Assembly (NCBI GenBank): GCA_029266455.1
Contig: JAQSWV010000018.1
Location: forward strand, 1 to 48,631
DNA from: Nocardioidaceae bacterium
Lineage (GTDB): Bacteria > Actinomycetota > Actinomycetes > Propionibacteriales > Nocardioidaceae
Length of the DNA stretch: 48,631 bases
Reading direction: 5' to 3'
The notes beneath the pieces were generated by a model, which saw nothing but the letters and a program-made list of their open reading frames with translations, did not search any database and was not told the origin of the DNA. This document shows, one piece after another, positions 525 through 41,509 of this stretch (its first letter is position 1; every line of letters begins with the position of its first letter). Position numbers and translations under genes: made by a program.

Positions 525-648
525 GTGCGTCATACAACGCGCCGTCGATATGCCGCGCCCGGAATGACGTTGCCAGGGTGCTGTCGGTGCGTCATACAAC
601 GCGCCGTCGGGTACGCCTCGTCGCGTATGACGTCGGGACGGGCGGGCG
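525..648. repeat. Left array of the ~62-bp repeat family, two copies
   Basis: The 20-mer CGTCATACAACGCGCCGTCG occurs at 528-547 and again at 590-609, exactly 62 bp apart. It is preceded both times by GTG and followed by a less conserved stretch ending in ATGACGT (564-570 and 627-633). The second unit therefore runs from CGTCAT to ATGACG, giving it short inverted ends. The reverse complement of this unit matches the repeats downstream of the next gene, so the two arrays point in opposite directions around the DUF559 gene. The array fills most of the gap between the upstream stop codon and the DUF559 start. Confidence 0.85.
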
Positions 649-717
649 TCTGCTGGTTATCCCGAGACGGTCACTGCGTGCCGCCGATGGGCAGCGGACA
701 CGACCACATTCGTAGGT

Positions 718-1692
718 GTGACGGCCCCAGTACGAAGACCACGACGCCTGCGGGTGCCGGACGACGCCGGCCAGCGACGTGCGCGGCGTACGCGTGTCGC
801 CGAGCTCGCCAACGTCCAGGACGGTGTCATCTCGCGCCGCCAGCTGTACGCCGCCGGCCTCACGCGGTGGCAGATCACGGCTGAGCTGCGGGCCGCGCGC
901 TGGCGTGCCCACGGACGCCAGACGATTGCCGTGCACACCGGCGAGCTGATCGGGCGAGCGCCGTACTGGCGTGCTGCTTTCGAGGCCGGTCCGCGAGCCG
1001 CCATCGACGGCGTCAGCGCACTCTGTCTGGCTGGTCTGCAAGGGTCGGAGACCATCGCCATCCGGGTCTCGGTACCACGTGGCGCCCGTGTCCCGCGGTT
1101 GCGTGATGCGGTGGTACGGCAGACCCGGCGGTTGCGCGCCGACGACGTCGTACCGGTGGGCGTTCCCCGGGTACGCGTCGACGTGGCCGCCATCCGCGCC
1201 GCCCTCTGGGCTACGTCCGACCGCCAGGCGGCCACGTTGCTGGCCATGACCGTGCAGCAACGACTGGCGACTGCGGAGGCCGTGGGAGCAGCGCTGTTGC
1301 AGGTGAGGCGGGACAAGCGGCGGCGTCTTCTTGAGGCCATCGTGCTCGACCTGCTCGGCGGTGCGCACTCGATGGGCGAGATCGACTTCGCTCGCGAATG
1401 TCGTCGCCGCGGGCTGCCAGCTCCGACCAGGCAGGTTGTACGGAAGACCGCGACGGGCAAGGTCTACCTCGATGTCCGCTGGGACGACTTCCGGGTCGTC
1501 GTCGAGGTCGACGGCGCCCAGCATCTGCTCGTCGAACAGCACATCCCGGATGCCCTGCGGCAGAACCGGGTGGCCATCGCAGGCGACACGGTGCTGCGTC
1601 TGCCCGTTCTCGGTCTTCGAGTGGCCCCGGACGAGTTCTTCGCCCAGATCGCGGCTGCGCTGACCGCCGCCGGCTGGTCTGCGGCCGCCTAG
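718..1692 (+). CDS. DUF559 (Vsr-fold nuclease-like) protein with AbiEi-like N-terminal winged helix
   Basis: The protein has 324 residues. Residues ~27-75 (VAELANVQDGVISRRQL onward) look like the winged-helix domain found at the N terminus of AbiEi-type proteins. The C-terminal ~110 residues carry the DUF559 pattern: a conserved Glu in GEIDFARECRRRGLP, then VYLDVRWDDFRVVVEVDG with the acidic Asp and Glu-x-Asp-Gly of the Vsr/PD-(D/E)xK fold, then a basic segment and LRLPVLGLRV. Family knowledge: such proteins are present in many copies in actinobacterial genomes and are often labelled type IV toxin-antitoxin or endonuclease-like; their real function is not established. The GTG at 718 has no clear Shine-Dalgarno site, so a start a few codons downstream is possible. 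Arrays of one repeat family flank the gene in inverted orientation. No cognate toxin gene is next to it. Confidence 0.75.
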   Translation: MTAPVRRPRRLRVPDDAGQRRARRTRVAELANVQDGVISRRQLYAAGLTRWQITAELRAARWRAHGRQTIAVHTGELIGRAPYWRAAFEAGPRAAIDGVSALCLAGLQGSETIAIRVSVPRGARVPRLRDAVVRQTRRLRADDVVPVGVPRVRVDVAAIRAALWATSDRQAATLLAMTVQQRLATAEAVGAALLQVRRDKRRRLLEAIVLDLLGGAHSMGEIDFARECRRRGLPAPTRQVVRKTATGKVYLDVRWDDFRVVVEVDGAQHLLVEQHIPDALRQNRVAIAGDTVLRLPVLGLRVAPDEFFAQIAAALTAAGWSAAA

Positions 1693-1697
1693 CCCCC

Positions 1698-1873
1698 GCC
1701 TCGTGGCGTCATCGGTCAGGTGGCGTACCGACGGCGGGTTGTATGACGTCTGGGCGGGAGCCTCGTGGCGTCATCGGTCAGGTGGCGTACCGACGGCGGG
1801 TTGTATGACGTCCGGGCGGGAGCCTCGTGACGTCATCGGTCAGGTGGCCTACCGACGGCGCGTCGTATGACGC
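1698..1873. repeat. Right array of the 62-bp repeat family, three tandem copies
   Basis: Three head-to-tail units begin at 1698, 1760 and 1822. The first two differ at one base in 62; the third diverges at four positions before its tail breaks down near 1873, nine bases before the aminotransferase stop codon. Each unit contains GTACCGACGGCGGGTTGTAT or a close variant, the reverse complement of the core in the left array. Each is bounded by CGTCAT and ATGACG, a short inverted repeat about 30 bp apart. The array sits between two convergent 3' ends, a usual location for REP-like elements. Confidence 0.9.
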
Positions 1874-1881
1874 AAGGGCCG

Positions 1882-3111
1882 TCACGACAGGACGGCGGTG
1901 AGGGCGGAGGCCAGGGTCCCCACCTCGTCGTCGGTCATCACGAAGGGGGGCGAGACCTGGATGCCGCCGGCGCCGACCGCGCGGGTGGCGATCCCGTGGG
2001 CGCGGAGCCGCTTCGCCACGCCGAGGGCCTCGCCCGGGTCGGCCAGCTGTACGGCGGCGAGCGCCCCGACACCGGCGCGCACCTCGGCCACGGAGTCGAG
2101 CTCGGCCAGCGGGCCGAGCAGGACCGGCAGTGACTTCTCCAGCCGCGCGGCGGCGTCGAGCAGGTGCTCGCGCTCGATGATGTCGAGGTTCGCCATGGCC
2201 GCAACGGCTGCACCCGCGTGTCCGCCATAGGTATAGCCGTGCCGCCACCACACGCCCGCACCGCTACGGAAGAACGGCTCGGCGACGCGCGGCGCGACCA
2301 GGGTGGCGCCCATGGGCACGTACCCGGACGTGAGGCCTTTCGCCGTGGTCACGATGTCGGGCTCCAGACCGAAGCGGGAGGACGCGAACCACGTGCCGCC
2401 GATGCGGCCGAAGCCGGTCACCACCTCGTCGGCCACGAACAGCACGTCGTGGTGGCGGCAGACCGCACGGACCTCGGCCAGGTAGCCGTCCGGTGGCGGC
2501 CACACGCCACCCGCTCCCTCCACCGGCTCGCAGAAGAACGCCGCCACGTTGCCGGCGCCCAGCCGCTCGATGGTCTGGTCCAGGTCGGCCGCGGAGTCCC
2601 AGGCGACGGTCTCAGCGTCGGTGACCAGCTCGCCATAGCCCTCGCGGTTGGGCGGGAGCCCCGACAAGGCAGTGCCGGCGTAGTGCATGCCGTGGTAGGC
2701 CTTCTGGCGGCCGATCACGATCCGCCTGTCCGGCTGCCCCACCTCGTGCCAGTACCGGCGGGCCAGCTTGGCCGCGGTCTCGACGGAGTCAGAGCCACCC
2801 GACCCGAACAGCACCTTGCTGCCGGGCACGGGCGCCATGGCCGACAGCCGCTCGGCCAGCTCCACCGTGACGTCCACGGTGTAGTCGCCGAACCCCGAGT
2901 ACGCCGCCAGTCGGCCCAGCTGCTCGCCCACCCGCTCGGCGATCTCCGTGCGCCCGTGGCCGACGTTGGCGAACCACAGCCCCGCCGTGACGTCGAGATA
3001 GCGGGTGCCGGCCGTGTCCCAGACGTACGCACCCTCCCCGCGGTGCAGGACGAACGCGCCGTCGGCGGCGACGGCGCCCATGTCCGAGAACCCGTGCCAC
3101 AGCGCACCCAC
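1882..3111 (-). CDS. Class-III pyridoxal-phosphate aminotransferase
   Basis: The protein has 409 residues from the GTG at 3111, chosen because GGAGGAG stands five bases upstream on the coding strand and the N terminus VGALWHGFSDMGAV matches the usual beginning of the family. The longer open frame upstream lacks this support. Fold-type I class-III features are clear: GSGGSDSVETAAKLAR (cofactor phosphate region), YHGMHYAGTALSG, FCEPVEGAGGVWPPP, LFVADEVVTGFGRIG with the PLP-pyridine Asp, and TTAKGLTSGYVPMG with the Schiff-base Lys. The family transfers amino groups from omega-amines or beta-alanine-type substrates to pyruvate or 2-oxoglutarate; the substrate cannot be read from sequence. It lies downstream of the gabT-like gene on the same strand, 157 bp apart. 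Confidence 0.88.
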   Translation of the reverse strand: MGALWHGFSDMGAVAADGAFVLHRGEGAYVWDTAGTRYLDVTAGLWFANVGHGRTEIAERVGEQLGRLAAYSGFGDYTVDVTVELAERLSAMAPVPGSKVLFGSGGSDSVETAAKLARRYWHEVGQPDRRIVIGRQKAYHGMHYAGTALSGLPPNREGYGELVTDAETVAWDSAADLDQTIERLGAGNVAAFFCEPVEGAGGVWPPPDGYLAEVRAVCRHHDVLFVADEVVTGFGRIGGTWFASSRFGLEPDIVTTAKGLTSGYVPMGATLVAPRVAEPFFRSGAGVWWRHGYTYGGHAGAAVAAMANLDIIEREHLLDAAARLEKSLPVLLGPLAELDSVAEVRAGVGALAAVQLADPGEALGVAKRLRAHGIATRAVGAGGIQVSPPFVMTDDEVGTLASALTAVLS

Positions 3112-3268
3112 GTTGCTCCTCCCGTCGGTCGACGTCGCCGACGCTACTCCTGGGCGAAGGCCCCGCTCCGGCGGAGGCCGACCCCCGGACCCGCCCGCGT
3201 CGTGGACCAACGCCTGCACCCCGTCCTCGGCGTCGAGCCCGGTCAGCAGACGGACACGTGCGCCTCGA

Positions 3269-10957: not shown

Positions 10958-12715
10958 ATGCTGAGGATGTCGACCCTTTTCGTCCGGACGTTGCGCGACG
11001 ACCCGGCCGACGCCGAGCTGCCGAGCCACCGCCTGCTGGTGCGCGCCGGCTACATCCGCCGGGCCGCGCCGGGGATCTACTCGTGGCTGCCGTTGGGCTA
11101 CCGGGTGCTCCGCAAGGTGGAGCAGGTCGTCCGCTCCGAGATGGACGCGATCGGCGCTCAGGAGGTGCACTTCCCTGCCCTGCTGCCACGCGAGCCGTAC
11201 GAGGCGTCGCACCGGTGGACCGAGTACGGCGACGGCATCTTCCGCCTCAAGGACCGCAAGGGCGGCGACTACCTCCTCGGTCCCACGCACGAGGAGATGT
11301 TCACCCTCCTGGTGAAGGACCTCTACTCGTCGTACAAGGACCTGCCGCTGTTCCTCTACCAGATCCAGACGAAGTACCGCGACGAGGCCCGACCCCGGGC
11401 CGGCATCCTGCGCGGACGCGAGTTCGTCATGAAGGACTCCTACTCCTTCGACGTCTCCGACGACGACTTCATGCGCTCGTACCAGGCCCACCGCGACGCC
11501 TACGTCCGGATCTTCGACCGGCTCGGCCTCGACTACGTGATCGTCAAGGCCATGTCGGGAGCCATGGGCGGTTCGGCGAGCGAGGAGTTCCTCGCGGTGG
11601 CCGAGAACGGCGAGGACACCTACGTCCGATCGCCGGGCGGGTACTCCGCCAACGTGGAGGCGGTGCGCGTGCGGGTCCCCGACCCGGTGCCGTACGACGA
11701 CGCGCCGGCCGCGCACGTCGAGGACACCCCGGACACCCCCACGATCGAGACCTTGGTCGCGGTGGCCAACGAGCGGCTGCCCCGCGACGACCGGCCGTGG
11801 GCGGCCGGTGACACGCTGAAGAACGTCGTCGTGATGCTCAAGCATCCGGACGGTCGCCGCGAGCCTCTGGTGGTCGGGGTTCCCGGTGACCGTGACGTGG
11901 ACACGAAGCGGCTGCAGGCACACGTGGAGCCTGCGGAGGTCGAGCCGTTCGCCGAAGAGCACTTCGCGCGCTACCCGGGGCTGGTCAAGGGCTACATCGG
12001 TCCGCAGGCGCTCGGAGAGCGGTCCGCGACCGGCGTCCGCTACCTCGTGGACCCACGGGTCGTCGCTGGCACGCGGTGGGTGACGGGCGCCAACGAACCG
12101 GGGCGCCACGTCTTCGACCTCGTCGCGGGGCGCGACTTCACGCCCGACGGCACGGTCGAGGCGGCCGAGGTCGTCGCCGGCGACCCGGCGCCGGACGGCT
12201 CTGGTCCGCTCGAGCTGGCCCGAGGCATCGAGATGGGCCACATCTTCCAGCTGGGCAGGCGGTTCGCGGACGCGCTGGGCCTCAAGGTGCTGGACGAGAA
12301 CGGCAAGCAGGTCACCGTCACCATGGGTTCGTACGGCGTCGGAGTATCCCGTGCCGTCGCAGCGGTGGTCGAGAACTCGCACGACGAGCTCGGGATCGTG
12401 TGGCCGCGCGAGATCGCACCCGCCGACGTGCACCTGGTGGCGACCGGAAAGGACCCCACCATCCTCGAGACGGCCGGTCGGCTCGCGAGCGGGCTCGAGC
12501 AGGCCGGCGTCGAGGTGCTGTTCGACGACCGCCCGAAGGTGTCACCCGGCGTGAAATTCGCGGACGCCGAGCTGATCGGCGTGCCGACCATCGTGGTGGT
12601 CGGCCGCAACCTGGCCGATGGAGTCGTCGAGATCCGCGACCGCGCGACCGGCAGCCGGGAGGACGTGCCGGTCGGCGAGGCGGTGGCGCACCTCACCGGG
12701 CTGGTCAAGGGCTGA
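10958..12715 (+). CDS. proS: Prolyl-tRNA synthetase (bacterial type with editing insertion)
   Basis: The protein has 585 residues, normal for the bacterial type. Class II motifs are present: [20 protein letters not shown] near motif 1, [21 protein letters not shown] as motif 2, and [16 protein letters not shown] as motif 3. Between motifs 2 and 3 lies the INS (YbaK-like) editing domain, about residues 225-400, which clears Ala-tRNA(Pro). The C-terminal anticodon-binding domain runs from [10 protein letters not shown] to the end, with [21 protein letters not shown]. It charges tRNA(Pro) with proline in the cytosol. The gene appears to have its own leaderless promoter and converges with the LuxR-type gene 21 bp beyond its stop. 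Confidence 0.97.
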
Positions 12716-41300: not shown

Positions 41301-41509
41301 TTCGTGCTGTCTGCCCCACAACTGAAGAAACCGAAACCGCTCGGAGCGAACCAGCCCGGCAGCAGTCCGGCGCTCGGTCCTCGGTAGTGGCCCTCGGGTC
41401 GCCCTTCGGTATGGAGGCGCGCCCCGCGGACCTCGATCGAAGACCGACGCGTCCTCCGCCGCGGCCGCAGCAGTTCTCCTCCGGCATGACACGCGAGAGG
41501 GGACCCTTC

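Follow-up and report, generated by a model that had tools for sequence, protein, structure and literature searches.

Within the 48,631-nucleotide stretch of DNA analyzed here (the window), a 324-aa ORF (718-1692, + strand) is surrounded by five copies of one repeat, two upstream and three downstream, and this ORF, a DUF559 gene, is the sole one of note in the resulting cassette. The question raised by this locus is whether the protein and the repeats form one system, comparable to the REP/RAYT pairs to which a preliminary description had likened it, or whether the gene stands among the repeats by chance. The features concerned are listed below, with the stop codons facing the two arrays lying at 517 (+) and 1882 (-).

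5-517, + strand: saccharopine-dehydrogenase-like gene, 3' part (Sacchrp_dh_C); a neighbor outside the system, with the first array at its 3' end
528-569, + strand: 42-bp palindromic element, upstream copy 1 (CGTCATACAAC...ATGACG), starting 10 bp past the stop codon of the upstream gene
590-632, + strand: palindromic element, upstream copy 2, of 43 bp (a rare length variant), with a 20-bp spacer to copy 1
718-1692, + strand: DUF559 gene, 324 aa, with an AbiEi-like N-terminal region and a Vsr/PvuRts1I-like DUF559 nuclease domain
1707-1748, - strand: 42-bp palindromic element, downstream copy 1, 14 bp past the DUF559 stop codon
1769-1810, - strand: 42-bp palindromic element, downstream copy 2, after a spacer of 20 bp
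1831-1872, - strand: 42-bp palindromic element, downstream copy 3, 9 bp past the stop codon of the minus-strand aminotransferase
1882-3219, - strand: class-III aminotransferase; a neighbor outside the system, with the second array at its 3' end

The repeat and the protein of the window locus

The repeat had been described as a unit of ~62 bp. Its copy counts and layout were retained, but the alignment of copies from the whole genome identified the unit as an imperfect palindrome of 42 bp (CGTCATACRACGCGCCG-N19-ATGACG), 62 bp being the start-to-start spacing of tandem copies, that is, one 42-bp element plus a 20-bp spacer. The cores of the two arrays are reverse complements in the window sequence, as had been claimed, and the single gene between them was recognized by the Pfam DUF559 model (21.8 bits against a cut-off of 20.6). 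The arrays do run in opposite directions; however, this is not specific to the DUF559 gene, since copies followed the direction of the preceding gene in 27 of the 31 scorable copies in the window's genome. In the window, the two neighbors point inward and each array sits at the 3' end of one of them, hence the inversion. Their inverted orientation is incidental, and inverted arrays as a functional feature were ruled out by this genome-wide orientation of copies with the preceding gene.

A search of the 3.43-Mb genome with the 20-bp core (up to two mismatches) returned 38 matches against none for the reversed control, and the pattern CGTCAT-N30-ATGACG was found in 44 exact copies against none for its control, so that the repeat family is not due to chance. 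It was observed that the copies nearest to genes lay from a few to ~40 bp past a stop codon. Among the 35 copies examined, for which the gene calls came from a simple ORF picker based on GC3, 14 stood in convergent, 15 in tandem and two in divergent contexts, and four were not scorable. The outer flank consensus of the elements was GA, and the closest named relative carrying the exact repeat pattern was a Nocardioidaceae MAG. The window's genome holds one DUF559 gene and gave no match to the Y1 transposase profile (PF01797), which did match in five control genomes; a RAYT identity was therefore rejected, the flanked gene being DUF559. Elsewhere in the same genome, two identical perfect 42-bp palindromes bracket an alcohol-dehydrogenase-like gene (G000:C38:9652-9693 and 11116-11157; L084 6653-6694 and 8117-8158). 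An Actino-pnp RNA (Rfam RF01688, 58.7 bits) was also found in the window at 41373-41448 (+).

The geometry of the element was constant, with 177 of the 184 elements that had 8-nt perfect ends measuring exactly 42 bp, a length of four helical turns. The spacers between neighboring copies clustered at 10-11, 20-22, 31-33 and 42-43 bp, and their phasing at 10.5 bp gave a Rayleigh R of 0.77 over 62 arrays, with a nominal p of ~1e-16, to be read in the light of the shared ancestry of arrays within a genome. Covariation between the arms reached 0.403, against 0.142 after shuffling and at most 0.15 after sliding, and the mismatches between arms comprised 178 G:T and 145 A:C, a wobble comparison that bears on RNA-level selection. 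Since selection on a hairpin only, as RNA or as a single strand, does not predict the phasing of spacers, recognition of duplex DNA is favored, and the palindrome is probably recognized in that form.

The preliminary description had also assigned to the protein an AbiEi-like DNA-binding domain and a nuclease fold, and both assignments agree with the profile searches. The N-terminal region (residues ~22-193) matched AbiEi models, with DNA binding being predicted, and the C-terminal DUF559 nuclease domain (residues ~220-314) gave profile matches to PDB 3hrl and to PvuRts1I (4oky/4oq2). The residues E221, D252, E263, H269 and R294 were invariant in 41 relatives, which is consistent with an active nuclease of the PD-(D/E)XK/Vsr type; a single-sequence structure model had a pLDDT of 38 and was unusable. 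The C-terminal nuclease domain, with its D...ExD...H residues, is shared with Vsr/PvuRts1I/AbaSI-type enzymes and with DUF559 "Vsr-like" proteins such as Caulobacter VsrA, and a DUF559 Vsr-like protein of Caulobacter was found to be responsible for an SOS response in vivo (PMC12907096). Unlike the Vsr/PvuRts1I-type proteins, however, the window protein combines its nuclease domain with an AbiEi-like region and is linked to repeats. Very-short-patch repair by Vsr involves T:G mismatch nicking and linkage to a cytosine methyltransferase; no methyltransferase, whether for cytosine or otherwise, was found among the genes adjoining the window gene. The match to AbiEi models is in turn shared with the AbiEi antitoxins of type IV toxin-antitoxin systems, from which the protein differs by its fusion to a nuclease domain and by the lack of an AbiEii nucleotidyltransferase toxin gene among the adjoining genes, which are the saccharopine-dehydrogenase-like gene and the aminotransferase.

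Association and cognate pairing of DUF559 genes and palindromes

The pattern CGTCATAC-N(14-44)-GTATGACG was matched in 93 of 246 genomes of the family, nearly always at exactly 42 bp, and the control pattern in none. In four genomes of other genera, repeat pairs ~1 kb apart were found to bracket homologues of the window protein; a chance encounter of one DUF559 gene with an ordinary 3'-end hairpin, considered in view of more than 20 other repeat loci, was dropped once this had been seen. A profile built from five proteins separated subfamily R (at least 233 bits, 79 genomes) from other DUF559 paralogues (at most 192 bits); one match in the paralogue range, that of G277 at 174 bits, has the look of an R gene cut short and carries palindromes on its own flanks. 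The exact repeats numbered a median of 17 per genome with an R gene and of 0 without (Mann-Whitney p=5e-31 over the 246 genomes, indicative since the genomes are related and no phylogeny correction was applied). At least one copy was present in 78 of the 79 subfamily-R genomes, with up to 104 copies per genome, and at least eight copies were carried by 61/79 R genomes against 12/167 others (Fisher p=4e-29, likewise indicative for related genomes).

The same association was observed at the level of single loci. CGTCAT-type palindromes (up to one mismatch) lay within 400 bp on both sides at 60 of 70 R loci, and some of the remaining R loci have other ends (ACGTGTG..., CGTCCTG...). None of 19 DUF559 paralogues had CGTCAT-type elements on both sides, and 14 of these 19 were instead flanked on both sides by palindromes of other sequence in a sequence-free test that asked for the same 7-nt inverted ends on either side of the gene. 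Outside the family, this test detected matched palindromes at 31 of 54 DUF559 loci from many families of the class, leaving ~43% without them, against 11/300 when upstream and downstream flanks were exchanged between class loci and 5/1770 at random positions under a slightly stricter version of the test. Where non-R or class loci had YGT...ACR ends, 19/24 carried palindromes of exactly 42 bp, against 3/600 in the control. The search of this and related genomes thus agrees with the enrichment of repeats beside DUF559 genes that had been suspected from the window. A repeat scattered without such enrichment is contradicted by the 60/70 R genes with elements on both sides, and an absence of flanks from related DUF559 genes by the class loci (31/54 against 11/300 swapped).

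Eighteen family genomes without an R gene had 5-24 repeat copies, e.g., G043 (24), G013 (20), G066 (19) and G164 (17), and such repeats weigh against the pairing unless the gene was lost recently or a different enzyme serves as partner. A DUF559 paralogue of G043 (764499-765383; L182, G043:C1:758499-771383) was found to be bracketed by arrays whose palindrome, GCGGACT...AGTCCGC, measures 39 bp and so represents a family of another length. The R genes of G014, G141, G219, G126, G170, G283 and G288 each show one in-frame stop inside the profile match, with the flanking palindromes kept; some of these genes may be decaying, although a stop close to the 3' end might be where the gene naturally terminates. 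No relative of the DUF559 protein was found in the viral contigs and plasmids searched, so that carriage by plasmids or viruses was dropped and spread, if any, would be chromosomal.

The two partners also varied together. Two bases inside CGTCAT change by lineage (AC, GC, GG, GA, CC, CA and others), the repeat ends required 26 changes on the tree of R proteins against 39.1 when shuffled (0/200), and GG-type ends formed one clade (9/9, SH-aLRT 100). Three genomes (G126, G199 and G238) each harbor two R genes, and in each of them the dispersed copies, with the gene flanks excluded, fell into two families (of 25/15, of 12/6 with one tie, and of 10/4 copies), each family being closer to the flanks of one R gene, mostly by 5-23 mismatches of 42. 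Non-cognate versions of the palindrome read CGTCATGG and CGTCATCAC. Coupling between the DUF559 protein and the palindromic repeat is strongly supported by these results.

Presence and absence of cassettes and the possible role of the protein

The preliminary description had proposed a check for empty sites in sister strains, and such sites were found. At site A, located 3' of a uridine-kinase-like gene and surveyed across 108 genomes belonging to a single genus, 17 species had a neighbor of at least 92% identity, eight of them with the R gene and nine with neither gene nor palindrome. The cassette of G141 fills precisely the gap that separates two convergent stop codons (TGA, then CGTCAT...ATGACG, then TCA), and the empty site of G168 reads TGA GCG TCA. 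A remnant was observed in G623, consisting of a 31-aa gene fragment and one element, and the intergenic flanks of the compared cassette sites diverge, which would mask any target duplication of the kind made by a classical insertion sequence. Ten R genes occupy site C, 47-437 bp 3' of fumarase; their origin as one clade was rejected (AU p=6e-11), and since they do not form one clade, this site was filled more than once. For site A, a single ancient arrival is compatible with the tree (monophyly AU p=0.36), and this site is accordingly not claimed as proof of replacement. Loss was seen and gain of gene-less copies was not, the comparison of G199 with G276 giving no gain of dispersed copies in two comparable loci (one shared, one truncated in the relative). 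The earlier term "mobile" is borne out in part: whole cassettes are present or absent at orthologous sites and occupy site C in unrelated lineages, whereas no dispersed repeat was seen to have newly inserted.

With a probability of about 0.7, we regard the DUF559 protein and the 42-bp palindromes as one system, made up of a cassette (palindromes, gene, palindromes, with one or more elements on each side) and of gene-less cognate copies at gene 3' ends. It was directly observed that these elements are associated with the gene, are specific to their cognate partner, keep a fixed length, lie at gene 3' ends and are helically phased in tandem, and that cassettes are present or absent as a whole; from this we infer binding, cleavage and copying or transposition by the protein. 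The AbiEi-like region would bind the two ends (CGTCAT...) of a cognate duplex palindrome, which share a face of the helix at a distance of four turns, and the nuclease domain would nick or break the DNA at the bound element. Repair or copying could then spread the element or the cassette into the spaces after stop codons, which would be sites of harmless insertion.

Other explanations account for part of these data. The DUF559 protein might be mainly a sequence-specific regulator or nucleoid-type binder, in which case the palindromes would be operators and regulon sites instead of mobile DNA. AbiEi proteins are known to bind to inverted repeats located in their own promoter, and the AbiEi-like N-terminal region, the palindromes adjoining the DUF559 gene itself and the helical phasing of tandem sites, which resembles cooperative binding on duplex DNA, would suit such a role. 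We nevertheless consider it unlikely, given that copies lie 3' of genes (between divergent genes in 2/35) and also downstream of the DUF559 gene, that the nuclease residues are invariant, and that cassettes come and go as units, with unrelated lineages at one site. The gene might also be a homing-type selfish gene, whose nuclease would cut cassette-free 3' ends into which the cassette is copied by recombination, the dispersed palindromes being remnants after gene loss. Vsr-fold homing endonucleases are known (the EDxHD family), presence or absence at cognate empty sites was observed here at orthologous positions as for homing-type elements, site C was occupied repeatedly, and the G623 remnant resembles a cassette that has lost its gene. 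However, up to 104 copies per genome against one or few genes imply that the repeat itself must multiply, as do the tandem arrays and the existence of two cognate dispersed families, and the empty sites retain no palindrome, which makes homing quite improbable.

If the palindromes were ordinary 3'-end hairpins (terminators or mRNA stabilizers) or MITEs of an unrelated transposase, the DUF559 gene would stand among them by chance; their 3'-end placement and arm complementarity do fit RNA hairpins. This is contradicted by a DUF559 association far above controls across a class, by cognate specificity, by a 10.5-bp spacer phasing that has no reason at the RNA level and by the lack of a Y1 transposase in the window's genome, and we attach almost no weight to it.

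Relation to REP/RAYT systems and to short DUF559 genes

The closest parallel to the DUF559-palindrome system is provided by the REP/RAYT "REPtrons", which comprise dispersed short palindromes mostly 3' of genes, one or a few chromosomal enzyme genes with their own flanking palindromes, cognate pairs and mostly vertical inheritance (PMC8266576, PMC3733652). The likening of the locus to such systems gained support from the co-occurrence, the flanking and the class-wide palindromes, and as in REP/RAYT, the DUF559 gene is flanked by cognate dispersed palindromes whose copies lie mostly 3' of genes. In contrast, the enzyme is a DUF559/Vsr-like nuclease and not an HUH Y1 transposase, the GTAG tag at the hairpin foot is absent, the elements beginning with CGTCAT, and the element has a fixed length of 42 bp, paired ends and tandem copies phased at ~10.5 bp. 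The pair probably works in outline like REP/RAYT, although through another enzyme and, in all likelihood, another chemistry acting on duplex DNA; REP/RAYT activity comprises single-stranded cleavage and strand transfer at the palindrome. A full-text search of the open-licence literature returned no paper linking DUF559 to palindromic repeats, and within that scope the results point to a previously undescribed partnership, unrelated to REP/RAYT.

Di Nocera et al. (2013) reported CGTC-tagged REPs without a dedicated transposase, in which an unpaired CGTC tag is followed by an 8-9 bp stem, a 4-5 nt loop and a CCA tail, with no mention of Actinobacteria (PMC3733652). These are also intergenic palindromes with an end reading CGTC(AT); here, however, CGTC is paired with GACG in a unit of constant 42-bp length, which falls outside the definition of a CGTC-REP. 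The common end is suggestive of a possible tie, but the structures are different. A direct tie was discarded for a gonococcal 50-kb stretch, whose CGTC-tagged hairpins (ATTCCCGC stem) differ from the hairpin beside its DUF559 gene.

Short DUF559 genes were also inspected in Proteobacteria, Deinococcus and E. coli (ycjD), the loci L285-L301 coming from plasmid-collection records. By a criterion chosen after the loci had been viewed, a pyrimidine-arm hairpin was found within 320 bp at 16/16 short DUF559 loci (on both sides in five), against 0/213 for paired control windows taken from three records and 4/96 for other windows of these loci. In L285-L301 (Azospirillum, Sinorhizobium, Sphingomonas, Deinococcus, Neisseria and others), a CCCTCTCCCC-type hairpin lay within this distance at every scored locus, under the same post hoc criterion. 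The E. coli gene ycjD is a DUF559 gene with an adjoining CCCTCTCCCC...GGGGCGAGGG hairpin, and in strain MG1655 (L284 1041-1407) a box C-like palindrome, CCCTCTCCCCAGAGGGGCGAGGG, adjoins it. This repeat, which we take to be the intergenic repeat "box C", is found at 19 places per E. coli genome in the median. The likeness to the window lies in a DUF559 gene adjoining a dispersed palindrome, the ycjD link having been tested by proximity; unlike in the window system, the ycjD protein is short and has no AbiEi region, and its hairpins are shorter, with pyrimidine arms. As read from sequence, the association of short DUF559 genes with pyrimidine hairpins may serve as a lead. We give even odds to the broader proposal that the DUF559 superfamily, short genes of Proteobacteria, Deinococcus and E. 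coli included, is a second class of palindrome-partner enzymes across phyla, unrelated to RAYTs.

Short palindromic repeats are abundant in bacteria, and to our knowledge the RAYTs are the sole class of dedicated enzyme known for them. The CGTC-type and other repeat families have been described as orphans (PMC3733652). If the broader proposal is true, orphan families such as E. coli box C gain an enzyme. DUF559, a widespread nuclease family labeled as of unknown function, becomes a concrete second enzyme-repeat pair to test, one that offers a function for the family. In this way, the origin of the repeats and their spread to gene 3' ends become testable, and the helically phased 42-bp geometry leads to specific biochemical predictions.
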